The notes under the pieces were generated by a model. That model saw only the letters and a program-made list of their open reading frames with translations, was not told the origin of the DNA and did no database searches. Position numbers and translations under genes: made by a program. A DNA stretch of 40,780 nucleotides, taken from contig NZ_BJDO01000021.1 of NCBI RefSeq assembly GCF_005405185.1, positions 1 through 40,780 on the forward strand, given 5' to 3'. Position 1 is the stretch's first letter, and every line of letters begins with the position of its first letter. Source of the DNA: Secundilactobacillus hailunensis (GTDB lineage Bacteria > Bacillota > Bacilli > Lactobacillales > Lactobacillaceae). This document shows, in pieces, positions 24,481 to 27,548 of this stretch.

Positions 24481-24544
24481 AACTACTAATGTAGCTTATC
24501 AAGCGCGAAGGGACCCAGCCTCAGTAATGAGGTTGGGTCCTTTT
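24476..24544 (+). ncRNA. Candidate small RNA of about 70 bases
   Basis: Starting where the TATAAT at 24464 would direct transcription, the RNA folds into hairpin one (24477-24501; TGATAACTAC and GTAG-C-TTATCA, 10 bp, loop TAAT, one bulged C) and, after a short linker, hairpin two (24511-24540; 13 bp with one G-U pair, loop GTAA) followed by TTTT and then GTTT. The second is a good intrinsic terminator. No ORF of note lies within. It could instead be only the terminator of the CPBP gene 92 bases upstream; the promoter and hairpin one argue for an independent transcript. Confidence 0.5.
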
Positions 24545-24594: not shown

Positions 24595-24623
24595 TTGCAC
24601 ATCATAGGTTCGGTCTCTATAAT
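24595..24623 (+). promoter_or_regulatory. Promoter of the tryptophan-transporter leader
   Basis: -35 TTGCAC (24595-24600), exactly 17 bases, -10 TATAAT (24618-24623). Start expected near 24630. One of the best promoters in the window. Confidence 0.75.
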
Positions 24624-24652
24624 AGTAGATATTCTAGTTCGGAGGAATTCAA

Positions 24653-24697
24653 ATGACAAAGTACGCTAACCAATTTAAATCCTGGCAATTCCGGTAA
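24653..24697 (+). CDS. Leader peptide of the trpXYZ-like operon (14 residues, one Trp)
   Basis: GGAGGA at 24641-24646 lies 6 bases before an ATG that opens 14 codons, MTKYANQFKSWQFR, and a TAA. The distance from the promoter is short (about 25 bases). The Trp is codon 11, four codons before the stop. The final bases of the ORF (24691-24698, CCGGTAAG) pair with 24747-24754 in the attenuator, so ribosome position on this ORF should control the fold. Comparable roles are known for TrpL and TnaC leaders; this particular peptide is not one I recognise. Confidence 0.65.
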   Translation: MTKYANQFKSWQFR

Positions 24698-24840
24698 GCA
24701 AACCGCTGTTTTAGACGCGGTTTGGACAACATGTTCATACACGTGTCTTGCCGGTTACTTTGTTATTGAGTGACGCTGCATGACTAACCTTGCACGTCGC
24801 CGATCTTCTTAGACGACTTCTGTGAGGAGTCGCCTTTTTT
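24691..24840 (+). promoter_or_regulatory. Attenuator region with competing stems and terminator
   Basis: Visible pairings: CAAACCGC (24699-24706) with GCGGTTTG (24717-24724), perfect 8 bp; CCGGTAAG (24691-24698, spanning the leader stop) with CTTGCCGG (24747-24754), 8 bp with one U-G; GGTTA (24753-24757) with TAACC (24785-24789) and ACGTG (24741-24745) with CACGT (24793-24797), which compete with the former; terminator CGACTTC (24814-24820) with GGAGTCG (24826-24832), then T6; and GTCG (24796-24799) with CGAC (24814-24817), a weak anti-terminator. No T-box core is present. Confidence 0.6.
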
Positions 24841-24881: not shown

Positions 24882-25877
24882 ATGAAGCGACTATACGCAT
24901 TGATCGCGATTATTGTTATTTTTCTTGGCTTCGCCTTCGTTGGTGAAGGCGGTACTGGTAAGCCGGCTCAAGTTGCAAAGCCCACCGTTGGTATTTTGCA
25001 GCTGATGTCTCACCCCGCCTTGGATTCCATCCACCACGGCATCATTCATGGTCTGGAAGAAAAGGGCTATCGCCCTGGTAAAAACATCAAAATTGATTTT
25101 CAAAACGCTCAAAATGATCAGAGTAACCTGATGACTATGAGTAACCGCTTTGTCAACGAAGATGCGGATGCCACCATCGGGATTGCTACCCCTTCAGCTC
25201 AGGCGTTAGCAAACGCAACTTCCAAAATTCCGATTGTTTTAGGAGCCGTCACGGATCCTAAGGGTGCTGGCTTAGTTAAGAACAATAACGCACCAGGCCA
25301 CAACATCACCGGAGTTTCTGATCAAGCACCACTAAAAGAACAGCTGGGGCTGATCAAGCAAGTCATGCCTAAGATGAAGACACTGGGGATTTTCTACACG
25401 TCCAGTGATGATTCAGCGGCCGCACAATATAAGCAGTTCAAAGTACTGTGTGCTAAAGAACACATTAAGTTAAAGGCTTACTCAATTTCCAACACGAACG
25501 ACGTGGATCAAGTTTCACAGCAAATGATGCAAAACGTTGATGCTGTTTACGTGCCAACTGATAATACGGTGGCTTCAGCCATGCAAACACTGGTCAAAAA
25601 CTCCAACGCTGCTAAAGTCCCTGTCTTCCCAGCCGTGGATACCATGGTTAAGTCTGGTGGCTTAGCAACCTACAGTATCAATCAATACAAATTAGGCGTG
25701 CTGACTGGCCGGATGACCGCTGATATCTTAAAGGGTAAAAAGCCCGCAACCACACCAATCAAATTCATCCGTCACGGCGATTTGATTTTGAACATGAAAG
25801 AAGCTCAAAAACTGGGGATCACCTTCCCTAGCTCACTGGTTAAAGAAGCTCAAAAGAAAGGGGAGATCATCAAATGA
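24882..25877 (+). CDS. trpX: Tryptophan-type ABC transporter substrate-binding protein TrpX
   Basis: Extracytoplasmic binding protein of the ABC_sub_bind family (COG2984), which includes the TrpX tryptophan binder of streptococci. From the ATG at 24882 (AGGGGA upstream; the frame extends 20 codons further into the terminator) it has 331 residues. It starts with a hydrophobic anchor or signal (about 4-20) with no lipobox Cys, so it appears tethered by an uncleaved helix or is secreted. The family patterns VGILQLMSHPALDSIHHGI, IPIVLGAVTDP and NITGVSDQAP are clear. It overlaps trpY by 4 bases. Tryptophan as the substrate is supported by the Trp codon in the leader. Confidence 0.8.
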   Translation: MKRLYALIAIIVIFLGFAFVGEGGTGKPAQVAKPTVGILQLMSHPALDSIHHGIIHGLEEKGYRPGKNIKIDFQNAQNDQSNLMTMSNRFVNEDADATIGIATPSAQALANATSKIPIVLGAVTDPKGAGLVKNNNAPGHNITGVSDQAPLKEQLGLIKQVMPKMKTLGIFYTSSDDSAAAQYKQFKVLCAKEHIKLKAYSISNTNDVDQVSQQMMQNVDAVYVPTDNTVASAMQTLVKNSNAAKVPVFPAVDTMVKSGGLATYSINQYKLGVLTGRMTADILKGKKPATTPIKFIRHGDLILNMKEAQKLGITFPSSLVKEAQKKGEIIK

Positions 25878-26782
25878 CATTTGGATTAGGCGTTTCTGCT
25901 ATCGGTCAAGGGCTGCTATGGGCAACCCTTGGGCTGGGATTATTTCTAACCTTTAGAATTTTAGACTTCCCCGATATGACGGTTGAAGGCACCTTCCCAA
26001 TGGGTGCGGCTGCCTGTGTGGCCGCTATCAATAACGGCATCAACCCCATCTGGGCAACGTTGATTGCCATTGGGGTCGGCATGCTTTGCGGTCTCGCAAC
26101 CGGCTTGCTGTATACTAAGGGCCGAATTCCGATCCTGTTAGCTGGGATTTTGGTCATGACCGCCGCATACTCCGTTAACTTGCGGATCATGCATGGTCGT
26201 TCCAACCTGACTTTACTGGATAAGCCGTCACTATTGAAGTTACCAATTTTCGCCCATTCACCAATGTATTTTGACAGTGTTTTCCTCGGCTTTACGGTGA
26301 TCGTCATTTTGACCTTAGTCTTAATTTACTTCCTGCAAACCGACCTCGGTCAAGCGTTCATTGCTACTGGTGATAACGAAACCATGGCCCGGTCATTGGG
26401 TATCAAAACCGACAACATGAAGATCATGGGTCTGATGGTCTCTAACGGGGTCATTGGTCTCGGTGGTGCCTTGGTCGCTCAAAACGATGGCTACGCTGAT
26501 GTCAACATGGGAATTGGGGTCATCGTCATTGCCTTAGCCTCTATTATCATCGGTGAAGTCGCCTTTGGTGAACTAACCATGAACCAGCGGCTGGTTGCAG
26601 TCACTTTAGGGTCGATCCTCTACCGCTTTGTTCTACTGGTCGTCCTGAAGTTAGGCTTCAACACCAACGATTTAAAACTGTTCTCATCCGTTGTTCTAGC
26701 ACTTTGCATGATGGTGCCAGTTTTCCGGGACATGTTCAATTTAAAGCGCGTTTGGAAACGGGGGATCTCTACTCATGACTAA
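25874..26782 (+). CDS. trpY: Tryptophan-type ABC transporter permease TrpY
   Basis: Membrane component of the importer, of the COG4120 / branched-chain-type permease family. The 302-residue protein has about nine hydrophobic segments, with FRILDFPDMTVEGTFPMGAA in the N-terminal third and GDNETMARSLGIKTDNMKIMGLMVSNG before the last helices, both characteristic of the family. Its ATG overlaps the trpX stop (ATGA), and its own stop overlaps the trpZ start by 8 bases, so all three are translationally linked. The family also transports other small molecules; tryptophan is inferred from context. Confidence 0.82.
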   Translation: MTFGLGVSAIGQGLLWATLGLGLFLTFRILDFPDMTVEGTFPMGAAACVAAINNGINPIWATLIAIGVGMLCGLATGLLYTKGRIPILLAGILVMTAAYSVNLRIMHGRSNLTLLDKPSLLKLPIFAHSPMYFDSVFLGFTVIVILTLVLIYFLQTDLGQAFIATGDNETMARSLGIKTDNMKIMGLMVSNGVIGLGGALVAQNDGYADVNMGIGVIVIALASIIIGEVAFGELTMNQRLVAVTLGSILYRFVLLVVLKLGFNTNDLKLFSSVVLALCMMVPVFRDMFNLKRVWKRGISTHD

Positions 26783-27548
26783 ACCAATTCTAGAATTACG
26801 TCACGTTGTCACCAAGGTCAATCGTAATACACCAGAAGAGCTCACCCTGCTGAAAGATTTAAATCTGACCATTAATGAAGGTGACTTCATTACCATCTTG
26901 GGTTCTAACGGTGCCGGAAAATCGACGCTGTTCAACACGATTGGCGGTAATCTGTCGATTGATTCTGGTGATATTCTGTTACGCGGCGAATCGATTGCTA
27001 ATGAATCCGAAGAACGGCGCACACGGTTTTTGAGCCGGGTCTTCCAAGATCCTAAACTGGGAACTGCGCCACGAATGACCGTGGCCGAAAACCTTTTACT
27101 GGCCACTAAACGCGGTGAACACCGGCATCTAGTCCCTCGTCATTTAAATCAGCACATGGCTGAATTCAAGAAAATGACCAGTGGTATGGGCAACGGTTTA
27201 AACGAACGGCTAACCACACCAACGGGTAGTCTATCTGGCGGCCAACGACAGGCCCTTAGTTTCTTGATGGCCACGTTGAAGAAACCGGACATTTTATTGC
27301 TGGATGAACATACGGCTGCGCTGGATCCGAAGACTTCACAGGAGTTAATGACCGCTACTAACGACCGGATCATTGCTCAAAAGCTCACCTGCCTAATGAT
27401 CACCCACCATTTGGATGACGCGTTAAAGTACGGTAATCGGCTGATCGTCATTAGTGATGGTAAGATCACCTATGACGTTTCCGGTGAAGAAAAACAGCAA
27501 CTGACACAAGAAAAACTCTTCAGTTTCTTCTCGGATCTGCAAGAGTAA
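26775..27548 (+). CDS. trpZ: Tryptophan-type ABC transporter ATP-binding protein TrpZ
   Basis: ATPase of the importer (COG1101 type). The 257-residue protein has Walker A GSNGAGKST (43-51), Q-loop RVFQDPKLGTAPRMTVAENL, signature LSGGQRQALSFLMA, and Walker B LLLDEHTAALDPK. The His in DEHTAALD where most ABC proteins have Pro is normal for this subfamily and supports the assignment. It overlaps the trpY stop. A strong terminator follows within 8 bases, closing a three-gene operon with its leader. Confidence 0.85.
   Translation: MTKPILELRHVVTKVNRNTPEELTLLKDLNLTINEGDFITILGSNGAGKSTLFNTIGGNLSIDSGDILLRGESIANESEERRTRFLSRVFQDPKLGTAPRMTVAENLLLATKRGEHRHLVPRHLNQHMAEFKKMTSGMGNGLNERLTTPTGSLSGGQRQALSFLMATLKKPDILLLDEHTAALDPKTSQELMTATNDRIIAQKLTCLMITHHLDDALKYGNRLIVISDGKITYDVSGEEKQQLTQEKLFSFFSDLQE

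Follow-up and report, generated by a model that had tools for sequence, protein, structure and literature searches.

A predicted leader-peptide attenuator upstream of trpX in Secundilactobacillus hailunensis and its relation to the trpB motif (RF04312)

What does the leader RNA in front of trpX in Secundilactobacillus hailunensis sense, and by what means? The window analyzed here, a stretch of 40,780 nucleotides from contig NZ_BJDO01000021.1, carries a tryptophan ABC transporter operon preceded by a very short open reading frame (ORF) and several potential hairpins. Relying on computation and in the absence of expression data, we consider it very probable that this leader acts as a ribosome-mediated transcription attenuator, responding to charged tRNA-Trp and governing trpX together with the two following genes, and that it belongs to a wider family, with RF04312 as its RNA half, which has been re-aimed by codon swaps. 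Established at the level of sequence are the ORF, the conservation of the leader, a set of covarying and mutually exclusive helices, and the match between codons and genes in sister elements. Counting against an attenuator are the single Trp codon of the window, six trpX loci that lack the leader, and the absence of a U-run behind hairpin P4 in the window.

The leader and the operon behind it comprise the following features, given in window coordinates:

24595-24623, + strand: sigma-70-type promoter TTGCAC-17-TATAAT, read directly from the sequence (-35 box TTGCAC at 24595-24600, 17-nt spacer, -10 box TATAAT at 24618-24623)
24641-24646, + strand: Shine-Dalgarno sequence GGAGGA of the leader ORF, read directly from the sequence
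24653-24697, + strand: leader ORF of 14 codons, MTKYANQFKSWQFR followed by a stop codon, from sequence and conservation before trpX
24656-24663, + strand: strand X, codons 2-4, ACAAAGTA, pairing by eye with X'
24683-24685, + strand: Trp codon 11, the sole Trp codon of the window leader and proposed stall site
24691-24698, + strand: strand Y, last codons and stop, CCGGTAAG, pairing with Y' (CTTGCCGG, 24747-24754)
24699-24706, + strand: strand 1, CAAACCGC, 5' arm of hairpin 1:2, from sequence and covariation
24713-24724, + strand: strand 2, pairing with strand 1 (through 24717-24724) or with strand 3 (through 24713-24719), from covariation
24742-24754, + strand: strand 3 with Y', pairing with 2 and Y (putative off state) or with 4 (putative on state)
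24756-24763, + strand: strand X', TACTTTGT, assigned by eye
24770-24784, + strand: strand 4, 5' arm of hairpin P4, from sequence and covariation
24791-24800, + strand: strand 5, 3' arm of P4, which in many relatives is terminator T1 with a U-run, absent here
24814-24840, + strand: terminator T2, from a terminator scan (stem 24814-24832, U-run T6 at 24835-24840)
24882-25877, + strand: trpX, tryptophan ABC transporter substrate-binding protein (NF041285, 488 bits against a cut-off of 390)
25874-26782, + strand: permease of the same transporter (trpY-like), named from position, permease families scoring far below their cut-offs
26775-27548, + strand: ATPase of the same transporter (trpZ-like), named from position, ABC ATPase families scoring below cut-off

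The initial annotation, made from the letters alone, had proposed a promoter, a GGAGGA and a 14-codon ORF with Trp at codon 11, all of which lie where it placed them, and its identification of trpX is borne out by the family match listed above; the window protein is 98% identical to TrpX of S. silagei. The two 8-bp stems that it had seen behind the ORF hold in part, in that hairpin 1:2 has 8 bp (CAAACCGC at 24699-24706 with GCGGTTTG at 24717-24724) and the second stem (about 24725-24747) is imperfect by eye. Similarly, the terminator that it had described as a 7-bp stem with T6 keeps its T6 and its distance, ending 41 bases before the trpX ATG at 24882, but its stem scores 8 pairs. The pairing it had noticed between 24691-24698 and 24747-24754 comprises 8 pairs, one of them G-U, and covaries in relatives. 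In the window, 3:4 pairs GCATGAC at 24778-24784 with 24745-24751 at six of seven positions, with one mismatch. Pairing of the ribosome-binding site comparable to X:X' is seen by eye in L070 and L048, and Secundilactobacillus pentosiphilus (L041) has TTGCGC-17-TATAAT at the position equivalent to the window promoter. Directly before that promoter, at 24508-24543, a strong hairpin is followed by a T-rich stretch and is probably the terminator of the upstream gene. Consensus scans of the window gave three promoter-like sites against 2.2 expected and two terminator-like sites against 0.8 expected, so that these scans alone do not prove the leader beyond chance; what places it beyond chance is its recurrence before trpX and the covariation of its helices.

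Alignment of the leader across trpX operons of relatives had been suggested as a check, and it bears the leader out: of 80 named loci, 74 keep the ORF before trpX, its stems carry compensating changes, and the window likewise carries the leader. The leader is also present in L067, from Levilactobacillus brevis. In the list of leaders, two (L091 and L094) were added by hand and two (L052 and L041) were accepted by reading and not by the ORF scripts; in L041, at about 3780, CTG stands in place of the leader ATG, and this locus is counted among the 74. The leader is absent upstream of trpX in L059, L065, L077, L092, L097 and L118, and no Rfam regulator reaches its gathering score upstream of trpX in these six loci, where the sole Rfam match is rli28 on the minus strand of L077. 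The first five of these represent Lactobacillaceae species whose trpX has neither the leader nor an Rfam regulator directly upstream. Elsewhere, L177 carries, from about 460, a Trp leader without trpX, and right behind its terminator lies an ORF that by eye resembles a group II intron reverse transcriptase.

The Trp codon TGG is present in all 61 distinct leaders (compared as 45-nt stretches), which is no test of its conservation since the pattern used to find leaders demanded TGG; independent support comes from a codon-blind model described below, among whose 147 matches read 85 have Trp leaders. After the Trp codon, Gln occurs in 59, Ser in 51 and Arg in 51 of the 61, encoded by CAA in 56 and CAG in three, by AGC in 48 and by CGG in 48, and this scarcity of silent variation pointed to RNA pairing. 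In Lacticaseibacillus, GCCGG is replaced by GCCAA in the last leader codons, together with the downstream partner strand. A Leu-Asn pair, whose Leu codon varies at silent positions, recurs at codons -4/-3 before the regulatory codon in leaders of the Trp, Tyr/Phe and Arg types (Leu in 27 and Asn in 36 of the 61 Lactobacillaceae leaders). Neither this pair nor the near-fixed CAA after Trp is explained by an attenuator.

To define the helices, 67 Lactobacillaceae leaders were aligned (alignment A1), leaving out the identical L095 and the near-copies L049, L055, L057, L060, L069, L079 and L100. Across the 66-67 leaders, 91.6% of cells are paired in Y:Y', which contains the stop codon, with 20 cells changed on both sides; the corresponding values are 87.6% and 45 for 1:2, 90.3% and 38 for 2:3, 84.2% and 44 for 3:4, and 82.0% and 55 for 4:5, and slid controls, in which the partners were moved by one to three columns, reach at most 56.2%. 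For each of these five helices the double-changed cells and the covariation score were reached by none of 500 shuffles; by contrast, neither the count of pairs with a double change nor that of pair types exceeded the shuffles for Y:Y', 1:2, 2:3 and 3:4. A second alignment (A2, underlying model R2) contains 68 sequences from several families and starts at or just before the leader stop, after the regulatory codons. On these, 80.2% of cells are paired in 1:2 (89 double-changed), 90.9% in 2:3 (90), 92.8% in 3:4 (37) and 92.2% in 4:5 (60), against 67.1% in the highest slid control. As judged from the two alignments, 1:2, 2:3, 3:4 and 4:5 form a chain of mutually exclusive helices, because each helix has a strand in common with the next: strand 2 serves both 1:2 and 2:3, strand 3 both 2:3 and 3:4, and strand 4 both 3:4 and 4:5.

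The effect of a translating ribosome on this chain was computed with ViennaRNA by setting a ribosome on each codon in turn, hiding bases up to 12 past the first base of the A-site codon, and reading the probability of 3:4 in a transcript ending just after strand 4, at equilibrium and not co-transcriptionally. Over the 67 leaders the mean probability of 3:4 is 0.74 with the ribosome on Trp, 0.30 on the stop codon and 0.15 without a ribosome; on Trp it exceeds the ribosome-free value by more than 0.05 in 57 of 67 leaders and falls below it in none, and relative to the stop it is higher in 50 and lower in five. Along the ORF, 3:4 peaks at codons -1 to +1 around Trp and has its trough at +3 to +5, the stop being +4. 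The test is not sharp in every respect, given intermediate values of about 0.5 for a ribosome four to eight codons before Trp and of 0.9 beyond the ORF, where strand 2 is hidden as well. In the window the values are 0.63 on Trp, 0.46 on the stop and 0.00 without a ribosome, a small difference between Trp and stop. A wider set of 97 leaders, aligned by the codon-blind model, was compared between codon -6 and the stop, over which 3:4 goes from 0.87 to 0.22 in the Trp type (n=51), from 0.80 to 0.16 in the Tyr/Phe type (n=37), from 0.78 to 0.04 in the Ile/Leu/Val type (n=3) and from 0.66 to 0.47 in the Arg type (n=2). The drop exceeds 0.05 in 48 of 51, 35 of 37 and 3 of 3 leaders of the first three types. 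In one Trp-type leader (L291) 3:4 goes up, opposite to expectation, and the His-type leader gave no 3:4 signal in this alignment; for L374 and L313, listed as 'other', the wrong short ORF was used, and L366 gave no leader. By this calculation, a ribosome on the regulatory codon is predicted to favor 3:4 and one on the stop codon to disfavor it.

From these data the following mechanism may be proposed. When tryptophan is low, the ribosome would wait with the Trp codon at 24683 in its A site, covering strand Y; hairpin 1:2 could form just ahead of it, and strand 3, barred from both 2 and Y, would pair with 4, breaking P4 and letting transcription continue. With enough tryptophan, the ribosome would reach the stop codon and cover strand 1, so that 2 would pair with 3; after release, Y:Y' and X:X' would close too, strand 4 would be free for the terminator side, and transcription would stop. 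That the ribosome does stall, which way regulation runs and, for the genus of the window, how 3:4 reaches T2 are matters of inference.

That last step deserves separate treatment. Many of 39 rows have 4:5 followed by a U-run (T1) and then the second terminator T2; T1 lacks the U-run in the Secundilactobacillus rows and in most of those from Lentilactobacillus, where T2 alone is terminator-like. In a crude test on the window, the T2 arm is paired upstream with a probability of 0.13 with a stalled ribosome and 0.85 without one, contrary to expectation. Over all 21 sequences of this test, which addressed a proposed coupling of P4 to T2 (5:6), the result went clearly as expected in seven (L043, L044, L046, L075, L076, L085, L087), the opposite way in four (the window, L039, L040, L041) and changed little in ten; in some (L039, L040, L087) the script took another hairpin as T2. 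Since strands 1-4 are kept in the genus, the evidence suggests that the switch may still work in Secundilactobacillus, with its final step unnamed and coupling of 3:4 to T2 not shown.

The reach of the element beyond this genus was explored with covariance models. R1, built from Lactobacillaceae leaders only, matches in 237 of 301 Lactobacillaceae genomes and in 143 of 295 genomes of the order Lactobacillales; the window matches R1 and R2 partly by construction, because it is in both training sets. When eight R1 sites outside the family were scanned with Rfam, RF04312 was found above threshold at the same place in L196, L198, L206 and L210, and below threshold in the other four, L194 (57.1 bits, just below), L197, L204 and L212. 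None of five Lactobacillaceae loci scanned reaches the RF04312 threshold; scores below it were obtained for L104 (Limosilactobacillus; 45 bits), L183 (39) and L176 (38), there is no match at E 1 in L039, L048, L070, L096 and L111, and the window itself has no RF04312 match up to E 10 (gathering score 59 bits). Judged by these models, the window element appears to be related to RF04312 through the intermediate model R1. The RF04312 model starts after the leader and therefore offers a test that is independent of the leader codons. Among 398 genomes of the class Bacilli it has 21 matches in 19 genomes, and the leader ending just before is of the Trp type in 15, Tyr/Phe in two and His in one, with three chance-like cases (by eye); the His leader, ending in ..FHHHHRFKGL-stop, precedes a hisZ-like gene (L224, the same as L243). 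R2, equally blind to the regulatory codons, matches in 176 of 256 Lactobacillales genomes, covering 59 of 66 genera, and in 16 of 259 genomes of the class Bacilli, two of them (G635, G667) chance-like. Rejected as chance or decayed matches were L184 and L186 for R1, L229, L230 and L232 for RF04312, and L249, L250, L347, L358 and perhaps L357 for R2.

Reading 147 R2 matches, the fetched part of all R2 matches listed (with site G353 counted twice, as L300 and L370), we sorted the leaders into 85 Trp, 47 Tyr/Phe, seven Ile/Leu/Val, six Arg-type, one His and one without a type; among the seven Ile/Leu/Val rows, L275 and L276 have a Trp leader in the other listed ORF and L358 is chance-like. Trp leaders precede 78 TrpX-family genes and four trpB genes (one tested, TIGR00263); the rest are L357, a weak match before a PTS IIA-like gene, and L251 and L238, without a long ORF. 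The latter two (in G315 and G328, respectively) have WQNW leaders that look intact, with no start of a long ORF in the 700 bases that follow; the related G335 carries trpB at that place, so the gene may have been lost behind these leaders. Tyr/Phe leaders precede 33 TrpX-family proteins, ten aroE genes (two tested), the prephenate dehydratase gene pheA (188 against 219 bits), an aminotransferase gene behind a leader ending in QYWFSYFRESL and, by eye, a TrpY-like permease (L349, without any NCBIfam family at 1e-15) and a binding protein of another family (L348). Ile/Leu/Val leaders precede two ilvE genes (IISIIR-stop; one tested), one ilvB (LLISVIR-stop) and one ilvA (L359), whose leader stop lies 38 bases before the match, a different spacing. 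Arg-type leaders (LNIRLRSR-stop or LRSQ-stop) precede five polar amino-acid ABC transporters and one oppA-like gene (L289). In these rows (L289, L290, L295, L309, L310 and L311, genus g9) the Trp codon is gone, and one genome, G047, has four element matches. Assignments rest on an NCBIfam run of 18 downstream proteins of the R2 set; the hisZ-like gene (218 against 272 bits), transporter L309 and the oppA-like L289 have these as best families below the curated cut-offs. The remaining aroE, trpB and transporter names come from similarity of the first residues or from phmmer comparison with the window TrpX, and L185 as trpB and L336 as ilvE were named by eye only.

Across these types the ending xxSxxR-stop stays constant while x varies (WQSWRR, YFSYFR, IISIIR), and its Ser and Arg codons fall in the strand that pairs downstream. 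On this comparison the leader codons mostly appear to fit the gene behind: Trp with trpX or trpB, Tyr/Phe with aroE, pheA and a sister transporter clade, Ile/Leu/Val with ilv genes, and His with hisZ. There is no clear fit for the weak match L357 or for the Arg type, including the oppA-like L289; that the Arg codons fit the substrate of those transporters, itself unknown, is a guess. Three leaders (L246, L247 and L248, in G352, G392 and G318) end in ..FYFSYFR-stop or ..YFYSYFR-stop before TrpX-family proteins and belong to genus g43, presumably Streptococcus, a large genus mostly without Trp-type matches.

Leader type agrees with the tree built from 124 TrpX-family binding proteins: a single branch with a support of 100/100 separates 32 Tyr/Phe and one 'other' row from 88 Trp rows, twelve of them chosen from known Trp leaders, and three 'other' rows. 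The 'other' rows have listed ORFs with Phe (L365) or Trp (L275, L276, L316) codons where the script chose another ORF, and if those ORFs are taken the split is exact. The TrpX-family score does not separate the leader types as the tree does, because not only Tyr/Phe-leader proteins (L253 352, L312 319, L354 341) but also two Trp-leader proteins (L316 373, L333 322) fall below the cut-off of 390.

These comparisons bear directly on what the RNA could otherwise be. The filing of RF04312 as a strong riboswitch candidate, with a terminator and covariation, as described in the part of the source available to us (PMC11109978), and the well-conserved pairing of strands 2-5 would accord with an RNA that binds tryptophan or a related metabolite directly, the first proposal of its discoverers, the ORF being incidental. 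Yet a model that starts past the regulatory codons finds, just before its matches, ORFs preceded by Shine-Dalgarno sequences whose codons fit the gene, and does so for several amino acids; the strand sequences vary freely as long as pairing is kept, with a single invariant column in A2, which a binding pocket would hardly allow, and the stop-codon region is itself part of a covarying helix. We therefore hold direct ligand binding to be very improbable.

A nascent-peptide sensor resembling TnaC, which the initial annotation had offered as its second possibility, would have the nascent ..WQSR bind free tryptophan and arrest at the stop, keeping 2:3 and shutting the operon at high tryptophan. The nearly fixed WQSR-stop in Lactobacillaceae, the Leu-Asn before the regulatory codons in several classes and the folding result that a ribosome held at the stop would favor 2:3 are all compatible with it. 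The codons after Trp, however, are almost free of synonymous variation and covary with the downstream strand, as expected for an RNA helix and not for a peptide, and the same scaffold is found with YYFSYFR-stop, IISIIR-stop, HHHHRFKGL-stop or LRSR-stop in place of WQSR-stop, so that Tyr, Ile, His or Arg codons replace Trp. As the main reading it is set aside in view of the codon table and the codon swaps, no invariant residues being independent of RNA pairing, and little credence is left for it.

It is no more plausible that the element is a simple terminator or a general sensor of translation, opened by any slow leader ribosome without amino-acid specificity. The intermediate 3:4 before the Trp codon, the Arg type and the one weak Trp-type match without a clear codon-gene fit would be at home there; the agreement between codons and genes and the way leader type divides with the transporter clade would not. 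A T-box was rejected, in line with the initial annotation, which saw none, since no Rfam family, RF00230 included, reaches its gathering score anywhere in the window and Rfam searches at the leader up to E 10 gave two chance-like matches only; elsewhere the same genome has 40 T-box matches (E <= 0.001), 11 of them over the Rfam cut-off. Attenuation through the supply of charged tRNA-Trp, the first possibility put forward for this leader, thus remains supported by conservation, covarying exclusive helices, ribosome-position folding and, above all, sister leaders whose codons are swapped to fit other downstream genes.

That annotation knew of no description of the leader. This is correct only in part: the RNA half corresponds to RF04312, the trpB motif, described as a riboswitch candidate in other taxa in the accessible part of PMC11109978. 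No paper tying the trpB motif to a leader peptide was found among open-licence PMC papers. Within the scope of those searches, what appears to be new is the inclusion of a leader ORF in the motif, along with strand 1 and the helix at the stop codon, the presence of the element in Lactobacillaceae beyond the reach of RF04312, and codon swaps that follow gene function. More generally, we think it likely, with somewhat less assurance than for the window itself, that, rather than being a riboswitch, the trpB motif forms the RNA half of an attenuator cassette that is programmed through its codons and occurs in Lactobacillales and some other Bacilli, a five-strand scaffold re-aimed in evolution at Trp, Tyr/Phe, Ile/Leu/Val, His and perhaps Arg through the leader codons of xxSxxR-stop. 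If so, it would be a counterpart of T-box specifier swaps that is read by the ribosome rather than by RNA, and the leader codons would predict both a Tyr/Phe substrate for the sister clade of TrpX-like proteins and, in lactic acid bacteria and related organisms, how aroE, pheA and ilv genes are regulated. The question of what the trpB motif senses would thereby receive an answer that can be tested, and leader-peptide attenuation would seem to be common in Lactobacillales beside T-boxes, with one scaffold re-used for several amino acids.

Ribosome-mediated attenuation is a textbook form of regulation, exemplified by trpL of Escherichia coli, a 14-codon leader with two adjacent Trp codons near its end. 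The window resembles trpL in having a 14-codon leader with Trp near its end and, by prediction, a stalled ribosome that selects between exclusive helices before a terminator. It differs in having one Trp codon instead of two adjacent ones, five strands, with 1:2 ahead of the stalled ribosome promoting the antiterminator, and a stop-codon region that pairs downstream.

In its 2024 description the trpB motif comprised over 900 representatives from Firmicutes and Fusobacteria and was counted among ten strong riboswitch candidates without a proven ligand; in the portion available to us its authors could exclude neither a protein factor nor a classic attenuator (PMC11109978). Its P1 corresponds to strands 2:3 and its P2 to terminator 4:5, its antiterminator is located in the right shoulder of P1, and it lies, as here, upstream of trpB or amino-acid ABC transporter genes (PMC11109978, same portion). 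Unlike the element described here, it is presented there without strand 1 or codon swaps, and the passages on trpB, tryptophan and uORFs name no uORF for it (PMC11109978). Leader-peptide attenuation in Firmicutes is also proposed, in the sections accessible to us, for His leader peptides upstream of hisZ and hisS* in bacilli (PMC2965389) and for his operons of the B. cereus group, Eubacteriales and Erysipelotrichales (PMC9413887); those sections connect them neither with the trpB motif nor with versions for Trp, Tyr or Ile, and in our data one RF04312/R2 match has a His leader before a hisZ-like gene. For the Staphylococcus aureus ilv leader, Leu-rich and upstream of ilvD, the same kind of attenuation is supported by mutants, according to the part of the paper at hand (PMC5794164). 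The same transporter as that of the window, which has no T-box, is encoded by trpXYZ of Streptococcus suis; there, as the available part of the report describes, the operon has a T-box, in which the RNA reads the tRNA directly, and is induced at low tryptophan (PMC9382623).
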